From positions 124,001 through 188,000 of the forward strand of contig CAIMRY010000008.1 in assembly GCA_903843965.1 (NCBI GenBank): 64,000 nt of DNA, written 5' to 3'. Shown piece after piece: positions 37,837-41,089 of this stretch. The notes beneath the pieces are model-generated. The model was given only the letters and a program-made list of their open reading frames with translations, ran no database searches and was not told where the DNA came from. The position numbers were made by a program, and so were the translations under genes. Source of the stretch: an uncultured delta proteobacterium (GTDB lineage Bacteria; Desulfobacterota; Desulfovibrionia; Desulfovibrionales; Desulfovibrionaceae). Position 1 is the first letter of the stretch; every line of letters starts with the position of its first letter.

Positions 37837-39213
37837 ATGAACGCCTATCTCGTGATCCAGCTTGCCCGCTTCGGCGACCTTGTGCAGACCAAGCGTCTGC
37901 TCCTGTCGCTTCAAGCCCAGCCGGACAGCGAGGTCCACCTTTGTCTGGACGAGTCCCTGGCGCCCCTGGCGCGGCTTTTGTACCCCTGGGCGCGGCTGCA
38001 CCCGGTGTGCGCCCACGGAACCGCCCTGGCCAAGCTCCCGCCCGCCGAACAGGCCAGGGCGGTGCTGGAAAAGAATGTTCCGGTCTTCCGCACCCTGGCG
38101 GCCGCCTCCTTCACCCTGGTCTACAACCTGAACTTTTCGCCCCTGAACTACCGCCTGGCGAGCCTGTTCGACCCGTCGCAGGTGCGCGGGCACGTCTGGC
38201 AAGACGGCCAGGAGGCCGTGGGCCAGTGGACCCGGCTGGCCATGCGCTGGTCGTCCATGCGCCGCCTGGGGCTGAACATCGCCGATTTCTGGGCCTGGCA
38301 CCACCCCGCGCCCGTGCCTGCGGCCCTGGTCAACCCCGTGGCCCAGGGCAGGGGCGGGGGCCTGGGCGTGGTCCTGGCCGGACGCGAGTCCAGGCGCTCC
38401 CTGCCGCCCAAGGTTCTGGCCGCGCTGGCCGGTGGCCTGCTCGACTTGCGCCCTGGCGGCCAGGCGGGCGCAGCGCTGACGCTTCTGGGCAGCCGGTCCG
38501 AGGCGCAGGCCGCACGGCGACTGGAGCGCGAGCTGCCGCCCCGACACGCCCGGAGCGTGCGCAACCTTTGCGGCGCAACGGACTGGGCCGCGTTGGCGGA
38601 GGTGGTGGCTGGCCTGGACCTGGTCCTGACCCCGGACACCGGCACCATGCACCTCGCTGCGCACCTGGGTGTGCCGGTGCTGGCGACCTTTCTGTCCTCG
38701 GCCTGGTGCTTCGAGACCGGACCGTACGGCCAGGGGCATCTGGTCCTGCAGGCCAACCTGGACTGCGCGCCGTGCCTGGAGTCCCAGCCCTGCACGTCGC
38801 TTGTGGCGGAGCCGGCCAGGGGCCAAACGGCTGGGCAGCCCGCCTGCCTGCGGCCCTTCAGCGCGCCTGGGCTGGTGCGCTATCTCTCCACGCGCGAGGC
38901 CGGGCACCTGCCGCCGGGGCTCACGGCCTTCGGCTCGGACACAGACAGGCTGGGCCAGACCTATGCGGCCCTGGCCGGACCCGACCCCCAGGCAGCCCTG
39001 CGCGGGCATTTCCGCGAGTTTCTGTCAGCGCATCTCGGAGCCGGGGGCCTGGGGGCCGAGCCGGGCCCGCCCGCCATGGTTTCCCATGAGCTGGCCGAGC
39101 GCCTGTACACAGAACGCGACTGGCTGGTCCCGGACCCGGAATCCTCTGCGGGCAGATTGTGGCAGTTTGCCTGTGTATTTGAGCAGAATGATGACATTCC
39201 TGCAGGTTACTGA
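37837..39213 (+). CDS. Glycosyltransferase family 9 (heptosyltransferase-like) protein
   Basis: The 458-residue product resembles ADP-heptose:LPS heptosyltransferases: QLARFGDLVQTKRLL near the N-terminus for the first Rossmann domain, and the donor-site signature TPDTGTMHLAAHLGVPVLATFLSS with FETGPYGQGH in the second. A Cys pair (LDCAPCLESQPC) follows, seen in many of these enzymes. Its target could be lipopolysaccharide, flagellin or another glycan. The last six codons (IPAGY and stop) lie in the first copy of an 80-bp repeat. The ribosome site GAGGAG is 12 nt from the ATG, rather far. Confidence 0.85.
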   Translation: MNAYLVIQLARFGDLVQTKRLLLSLQAQPDSEVHLCLDESLAPLARLLYPWARLHPVCAHGTALAKLPPAEQARAVLEKNVPVFRTLAAASFTLVYNLNFSPLNYRLASLFDPSQVRGHVWQDGQEAVGQWTRLAMRWSSMRRLGLNIADFWAWHHPAPVPAALVNPVAQGRGGGLGVVLAGRESRRSLPPKVLAALAGGLLDLRPGGQAGAALTLLGSRSEAQAARRLERELPPRHARSVRNLCGATDWAALAEVVAGLDLVLTPDTGTMHLAAHLGVPVLATFLSSAWCFETGPYGQGHLVLQANLDCAPCLESQPCTSLVAEPARGQTAGQPACLRPFSAPGLVRYLSTREAGHLPPGLTAFGSDTDRLGQTYAALAGPDPQAALRGHFREFLSAHLGAGGLGAEPGPPAMVSHELAERLYTERDWLVPDPESSAGRLWQFACVFEQNDDIPAGY

Positions 39214-39274
39214 AAGTCTAGAACCTTGCATGACGATAGTTTTTGCGGATATCGTATTGAAAACAGCAGGAATG
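39195..39274 (+). repeat. 80-bp repeat, copy A (overlaps the GT9 3' end)
   Basis: Begins and ends with a perfect 9-bp inverted repeat, CATTCCTGC (39195-39203) and GCAGGAATG (39266-39274). It is identical to copy B at 63 of 80 positions by hand count, with no gaps. It includes the stop codon of the GT9 gene. Confidence 0.85.
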
Positions 39275-39436
39275 CGCAGGGCACAACGGGCCAGACTCCT
39301 GGCTGTTGCGCCGGGTTGCGGCGGAATGCCGCTCCAATGCCGGGAAAGGGCGGCGGCGAAGCCGTCTGGCGAGGTATGGGGCAGGGCCTGCGCAGGTTTT
39401 CGCCCACATAGACCGGCGAAAAAAGCCTGATGATAT

Positions 39437-39516
39437 GATTCCGGCAGGTTATGAATAGTTTAGAGTATCGCATGACGATAGTTTTTGTGGATGTTCCATC
39501 GAAAACAGCAGGAATG
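39437..39516 (+). repeat. 80-bp repeat, copy B
   Basis: Same length as A and C without gaps; starts GATTCCGGCAGG and ends with the same GCAGGAATG as A, so its inverted ends are imperfect. Contains MIPAGYE-stop and, downstream, an ATG followed by TIVFVD in the frame shared with copy A (TIVFAD). Confidence 0.85.
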
Positions 39517-39690
39517 CGCGGGCTGGGCAGGTCACGACCCTGGGCCGAACAGTGGGCCTGCGGCGAAAGTCCGGAAATAAAGTCCTCGGAAGCCGACTTC
39601 GCAACCGATATTGCAGTCGGCAGGAGCTTTTTCGCACCGGCATGCGGCCCTTGACGCCTGCGCAGACAGGGCGCATCAGGCTGATGAAAC

Positions 39691-39770
39691 GATTCCGGCA
39701 GGTTACGAATAGTCTAGAGGCGAGCATGGTCATCGGTTTTGCGGAGTGCCTATTCAAAACAAGGCGAATG
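39691..39770 (+). repeat. 80-bp repeat, copy C
   Basis: The most diverged copy; starts GATTCCGGCAGG and ends AAGGCGAATG. It stops 44 bp before the start of the next glycosyltransferase gene. Contains TIPAGYE-stop. Confidence 0.8.
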
Positions 39771-39814
39771 CGCGGGGTGCCATGCACTGGCCGCAGGGCC
39801 GCAAGGGGGCGAGG

Positions 39815-41089
39815 GTGAGGATACTGGTGGTGCTGCCGCTGTATGGCGGCTCCCTGCCCATCGGCAGGTACTGTACGGCGGCCCTGGGCCAGCTGGGGCA
39901 TCTGGTGGAGGTGTTCGAGGCCCCGGCCTTCTACCCCAGCTACAAGGCCCTACAGGGGCTCAAGGTGGGTGCCGACCGCCTTCAATACCTGGAGAACAGC
40001 TATCTGCAGGTGCTCTCTCAGGCCGTGTTGGCCAAGGTCGAGACCTTTGAGCCGGACCTGGTGCTGGCCCAGGCCCAGGCCCCACTGTCCATCCAGGCCC
40101 TGAAGCGGCTGAAGCGCGACGGCGTGCCCACGGCCATGTGGTTTGTGGAGGACTTCCGGCTGTTCACCTACTGGAAGGGCTTCGCCCCGCACTACGACTT
40201 CTTCGCCGTCATCCAGCGGGACCAGATCTTCGAGGAATTGCAGGCCATCGGCGTGCAGAACAGCCTGTACCTGCCCCTGGCCGCCCAGCCGGACGTGCAC
40301 CAGCCCCTGGAGCTGTCCGCAGCGGAGCAGCGCAAGTTCGGCTCGGACGTGTCCTTCATGGGCGCGGGCTACCCCAACCGCCGCGTGGCCTTCCGCGAGC
40401 TCATCCGCCACGACTTCAAGCTCTGGGGCACGGAGTGGGAGGGCGACAGCGTGCTGGAGCCCTACGTGCAGCTGGCCGGGGCGCGGGTGTCCAGCGCGGA
40501 CTGCGTGCGCATCTTCAACGCCACCAGGGTCAACATCAACCTGCACTCCAGCATCCAGGGCAAGGAGCTGGTCACCGGCGGGGACTTCATCAACCCGCGC
40601 ACCTTTGAGATCGCAGCCTGCCGGGCCTTCCAGCTGGTGGACCGGCGCGGGCTCATGCCCGAGGCCTTTGCCGCAGACGAGCTGGCGACCTTCGGCTCCA
40701 TGGACGAGCTGCAGGAAAAGATCGTGTATTTCCTGGCGCACCCAGACGAGCGCGAGGCCATTGCCCGGCGCGGCCAGGAGCGGGTGCTGCGCGAGCACAC
40801 CTATGCCGCGCGCATGCAGACCCTGCTGGACTTCGTGGCCGCGCGTCTGCCCGGCTGGCCCAAACCCCGCTCCGTTGTCCAGGCGGCGGACGGCCTGCCG
40901 CCGGAGCTGGCCGGAGACATCGCGGCCTTGCTGGACAGGCTGGCCCTTCCGGCGGGCACCAGCTTCGAGGATCTGGTCTGGGCCATCCGCCAGCAGCACG
41001 GCAAGCTGGGCGAACTCGACGCCGCCGTCCTGTTCCTGGACGAGTGGCGCAAGCTCTATGACAAGCGCCAGGGTGGACAGGGGGCTTAG
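39815..41089 (+). CDS. CgeB-like family glycosyltransferase
   Basis: From GTG 39815 the 424-residue product begins VRILVVLPLYGGSLPIGRY, a Rossmann start. It continues with a GT-B fold: PTAMWFVEDFRLFTYWKG, DVSFMGAGYPNRRVAFREL and the C-terminal donor region TFEIAACRAFQLVDRR with ELATFGSMDEL, matching the glycosyltransferase/CgeB family that modifies spore, flagellar or surface proteins. GGGGG upstream supports GTG; an ATG at 39782 is a possible longer start. Same strand as the GT9 gene and probably part of the same glycan pathway. Confidence 0.8.
   Translation: MRILVVLPLYGGSLPIGRYCTAALGQLGHLVEVFEAPAFYPSYKALQGLKVGADRLQYLENSYLQVLSQAVLAKVETFEPDLVLAQAQAPLSIQALKRLKRDGVPTAMWFVEDFRLFTYWKGFAPHYDFFAVIQRDQIFEELQAIGVQNSLYLPLAAQPDVHQPLELSAAEQRKFGSDVSFMGAGYPNRRVAFRELIRHDFKLWGTEWEGDSVLEPYVQLAGARVSSADCVRIFNATRVNINLHSSIQGKELVTGGDFINPRTFEIAACRAFQLVDRRGLMPEAFAADELATFGSMDELQEKIVYFLAHPDEREAIARRGQERVLREHTYAARMQTLLDFVAARLPGWPKPRSVVQAADGLPPELAGDIAALLDRLALPAGTSFEDLVWAIRQQHGKLGELDAAVLFLDEWRKLYDKRQGGQGA

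Follow-up and report, generated by a model that had tools for sequence, protein, structure and literature searches.

Between two glycosyltransferase genes of an uncultured member of the Desulfovibrionaceae, three short sequences resembling one another follow each other head-to-tail, each apparently containing the last codons of the upstream gene. This arrangement raises the question of whether glycosyltransferase genes have been lost, or are still exchanged, between the copies, whether a small mobile element has settled there, or whether the intergenic region itself has been multiplied. The locus lies in a 64,000-nucleotide stretch of genomic DNA, referred to here as the window, and the nearest named relatives of the genome are Humidesulfovibrio sp. 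and other Desulfovibrionaceae, the latter known from metagenome genomes.

Three repeat copies between two glycosyltransferase genes

Both flanking genes are on the forward strand. The upstream open reading frame (37837–39213) encodes a GT9-family, heptosyltransferase-like protein (Pfam PF01075, E=3.4e-14), whose orthologues in 13 same-genus genomes are 63–77% identical. The downstream gene (39815–41089) encodes a GT4-like glycosyltransferase that combines DUF3880 and Glyco_trans_1_2 domains (PF12996, 1.4e-12; PF13524, 9e-37) and has orthologues, up to 88% identical, that also adjoin GT9. Its likely GTG start at 39815 follows a conserved ribosome-binding region, AAGGGGGCGAGG (39803–39817 together with the start codon), and the same AAGGGGGCGAGGGTGAGGATACTGG occurs in the genus members L038, L041 and L042.

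A repeat search of the window recovers the three gap-free copies described by the first-pass annotation, with start-to-start spacings of 242 and 254. The exact length of 80 bp given there proves to be an arbitrary limit, as ungapped similarity covers 93 bp in copies A (39188–39280), B (39430–39522) and C (39684–39776), all on the forward strand. Pairwise identity is 71–78%, copy B being 78% identical to A and copy C 71–73% identical to both. Over the original 80 bp, recounting gives the same 63/80 identical positions for A and B, and 57/80 for both A–C and B–C. Elsewhere in the window, no ungapped 80-bp stretch matches copy A at more than 37/80 positions, which excludes a chance origin of the repeats. 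The copies contain 43–52% GC (43% in copy A), compared with 64% for the window, 67% for the 149-bp spacer 1 (39281–39429) and 63% for the 161-bp spacer 2 (39523–39683). Relative to the 3′ end of GT9, copy A occupies the ancestral place, copy C adjoins the native GT4 leader, and each contains a TCTAGA core (39217–39222 in copy A, within AAAGTCTAGA, at a site conserved in the genus; 39713–39718 in copy C). The core of copy B is degenerate (TTTAGA, 39459–39464).

The GT9 reading frame does end inside copy A, as had been noticed, with IPAGY and a stop (ATT CCT GCA GGT TAC TGA). The same ending had been ascribed to all three copies, but B and C read one residue further, IPAGYE-stop (ATT CCG GCA GGT TAT/TAC GAA TAG). 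Differences among the copies show no codon-phase bias, and the recurrence of IPAGY follows from the inclusion of the last GT9 codons in the multiplied unit, with no need for selection on the peptide. A small open reading frame within the copies (MTIVFADIV.../MTIVFVDVP...) was considered and rejected, since differences are not in excess at third codon positions (8/7/5 by phase between A and B) and the corresponding frame of L038 contains a stop. Scans of the locus returned no credible Rfam family, no sigma-70-like promoter and a single terminator match, located inside GT9 and at chance level.

The repeat is confined to a single locus

The genome (3.56 Mb, 46 contigs) was searched for further copies, such as a REPIN- or MITE-like element, proposed earlier for these repeats, would have left. 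BLAST with copy A returned copies A and B and otherwise only chance-level matches. A profile built from seven sequences (the repeat copies and their counterparts in relatives) retrieved A, B and C with E values of 1.9e-23 to 2.1e-18, the next best match having E=0.25. Neither search found another copy outside the locus; with three local copies only, the repeat is not a dispersed element.

What recalls a REPIN or MITE is the shortness of this repeated non-coding sequence and the structure of copy A, which has perfect 9-bp inverted ends (CATTCCTGC...GCAGGAATG), as first reported, and folds as RNA with moderate stability (z −2.7 against shuffles). These properties are not conserved. The inverted ends are broken in copy B (GATTCCGGC...GCAGGAATG), in copy C (GATTCCGGC...AGGCGAATG) and likewise in the relatives' counterparts, copies B and C fold no better than shuffles (z −0.35 and +0.85, respectively), and alignment of the seven sequences yields a consensus structure of 0 pairs. 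Moreover, what corresponds to the repeat in relatives is an intergenic region fixed at one orthologous position. This orthology, together with the absence of copies elsewhere in the genome, refutes the mobile-element reading, and three insertions of such an element are extremely improbable.

Relatives carry a single-copy counterpart

Orthologues of GT9 and of GT4/DUF3880 are both present and adjacent in 13 of the 14 other same-genus genomes, the exception being an 81% complete genome (G011) without a close GT9. In these 13 genomes, the distance from the GT9 stop to the start of the GT4 alignment is 46–124 bp, and alignment identifies this gap as a single-copy counterpart of the repeat. Gap-free matches link copy A to L038 (73% over 88 bp) and L037 (71% over 93 bp), and copy B to L037 (77% over 66 bp). 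Three copies are seen in the window's species only, where the GT4 leader is ~600 bp long, compared with about 90–120 bp in relatives.

The TCTAGA core at the GT9–GT4 site is retained in 12 of the 13 genus members, L038 having TTTAGA. In the counterpart, the core takes the form TTAAAnAAAGTCTAGA-N5-TCTA and, in the nearest relatives, overlaps with the stop codon of GT9. Conservation across the genus is highest in the block TTAAA(G/T)AAAGTCTAGA, whose TTAA shares nucleotides with that stop codon in the closest relatives, and in many members a further TCTA lies 11 bp after the first. In the window's species, all three copies have lost the TTAAA part as well as the second TCTA half of this core.

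None of the 13 same-genus genomes carries an extra gene between GT9 and GT4. The suggestion that the copies act as recombination sites for gain or loss of glycosyltransferase genes, which had called for a comparison of inserted genes in sister strains, is therefore not supported: in these 13 genomes the two genes directly adjoin each other with nothing in between.

The spacers bear no trace of glycosyltransferase genes

The repeats had also been interpreted as relics of a tandem array of glycosyltransferase cassettes, in which additional genes between the copies were deleted and only gene ends and intergenic regions were left. Two observations speak for this reading: GT9-like last codons (I-P-A-G-Y) stand directly upstream of the intergenic part in each copy, and the GC content of the spacers (0.63–0.67) is coding-like. 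However, neither spacer resembles the DNA of GT9 or GT4, whichever strand is compared (p 0.28–0.94), nor does either match the GT9 3′ end or the GT4 5′ end, so that decayed GT9 or GT4 coding sequence was rejected as their source. Comparison with the remaining genome gave only short, weak, GC-rich matches and no relative of the spacers, the related genomes have no spacer-like sequence at the GT9–GT4 site, and, as described above, no genus member has an additional glycosyltransferase gene there. With the spacers devoid of any trace of either gene, nothing indicates that complete glycosyltransferase cassettes once stood there. The array reading thus survives weakly and is improbable: a unit holding the last GT9 codons was indeed tandemly multiplied, but what was copied is the GT9–GT4 intergenic region.

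Aligned end-to-end, the two spacers are weakly similar (p 0.003–0.03 by shuffling, depending on the scoring scheme), as expected if the multiplied unit measured ~240–250 bp; local alignment shows no significant similarity between them (p=0.67). No RNA fold of spacer parts is better than shuffles, copy A alone beating them among everything folded. In spacer 2, a GC-rich stem of 7 bp (GCCGACT...AGTCGGC) precedes AGGAGCTTTTT (39575–39640), forming a possible weak terminator (z −1.84).

A probable tandem triplication and its age

The repeats probably represent an old, diverged, lineage-specific tandem triplication of the ancestral GT9–GT4 intergenic region together with the last GT9 codons, and they are best explained as a small and fairly ordinary tandem duplication rather than as a mobile element. 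They share with other small bacterial duplications of promoter or intergenic sequence the head-to-tail arrangement of non-coding copies, the inclusion of an upstream gene end and the single-copy state in relatives. Unlike typical cases, the copies are old and diverged (71–78% identity), and the intervening 149–161 bp have no identifiable source.

The duplicated unit would have begun within the last GT9 codons and extended across the AT-rich stretch in front of GT4. It may have been ~240–250 bp long, the spacers being what is left of it after divergence beyond recognition, or the spacers may have been inserted later. Six positions common to A, B and C occur in none of the four relatives aligned, and B and C have six further derived positions in common. 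Such shared derived positions fit a duplication after the split of the lineage, and copies B and C perhaps stem from a later duplication step. The copies differ among themselves by 22–29%, a divergence comparable to the 29–31% that separates copy A or B from the counterpart in the related genome G003, which indicates either an old event or a fast-evolving region.

A possible regulatory role of the multiplied region

From sequence comparison, we infer a regulatory role for the region upstream of GT4, and the intergenic segment multiplied here is probably regulatory. It would regulate GT4 from upstream or serve as its promoter, a putative protein recognizing the TCTAGA core, and copies A and B would then be surplus or additional versions of this region in the long GT4 leader. 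The core is conserved at this site across the genus and in part in all three copies; the lack of a sigma-70-like promoter match and the loss of core parts in this species speak against such a role. A stronger proposal, that the three tandem operator or promoter copies were retained for a stimulating or tuning effect on GT4 expression, seems unlikely. In its favour, columns invariant in A, B and C are, more often than by chance, also invariant among relatives (30 columns, p=0.009), the copies have remained gap-free and their core is one instance of a periodic motif found in intergenic regions of the genus. However, the copies have diverged by 22–29%, half of the motif is lost and copy B has TTTAGA, whereas the excess of shared columns may merely reflect common ancestry. 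With the TTAAA part and the second TCTA half lost, constraint on the copies may have been relaxed in part or altogether.

A periodic TCTAGA motif beyond the locus

The pattern TCTAGA-N(0–25)-TCTA occurs at 105 places in 15 genus genomes. Two spacings stand out, N=5 (41 places) and N=16 (15 places), corresponding to periods of 11 and 22 bp, the others accounting for 0–4 places each. In a sister genus within the Desulfovibrionaceae, that of G018, a genome that matches Pseudodesulfovibrio pelocollis, N=5 is found in 60 and N=16 in 14 among 126 listed places. Since TCTAGA is its own reverse complement, these tallies include some places on both strands. Genus-wide examples of the motif include L141, L142, L147 and L168 (positions 1501–1517 in each), beside the core at 39217–39222 in the window.

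Individual sites are found again at orthologous intergenic positions in several species, some of them upstream of a gene and others between convergent genes. These recurrent sites, with gene names read from translations rather than assigned by family search, precede a pseudouridine synthase gene adjoining lolA or a SPOR-type lipoprotein gene, lie near motA or behind a paaK-like gene, or fall between the convergent pairs serS/rimO and gpmI/tadA. In the window's own genome, two motif-like sites, AGTCTAGACTTGATCTG and AGTCTAGACATGGTCTT, precede a MiaB-like gene at a distance of 97 bp from each other (L153 and L165; contig C25:32149–32262). A search for tRNAs and Rfam RNAs at the other motif sites found none at the motif itself. 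One of the relatives' loci, L169, carries a guanidine-II riboswitch (512–558; Rfam RF01068, 37.6 bits) just ahead of a gene resembling small multidrug-resistance (SMR) genes, as well as one doubtful tRNA call away from the motif.

The motif looks like a putative binding site for a protein. It is conceivable, though less likely than not, that the repeat core is a site for a widely acting putative DNA-binding protein of Humidesulfovibrio and of the G018 genus, which would recognize TCTAGA-N5-TCTA with its 11-bp period and whose site would be tripled here upstream of a glycosyltransferase gene. The TCTA(GA) direct repeat of the relatives, with this period, can be likened to OmpR/PhoB-type operator boxes, in which direct repeats lie about one helical turn apart. 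Two direct-repeat response-regulator sites have been described in D. vulgaris, where the PhoB box is reported to be a 6-bp repeat spaced by 4 bp (PMC3333781). The present motif differs from boxes of this type in sequence, in having no regulator assigned and in occurring also between convergent genes; the string CTAG is absent from the main text of that study. Literature searches turned up nothing relevant on a TCTAGA motif of Desulfovibrio or on promoter duplications linked to glycosyltransferases.

The repeat itself carries little weight, documenting a small intergenic tandem duplication and the reason why gene-end codons can seem repeated. The TCTAGA motif is the more interesting outcome: conserved and periodic at orthologous intergenic sites throughout the genus, it offers a concrete lead to an uncharacterized regulator or chromosome-organizing protein in sulfate reducers.
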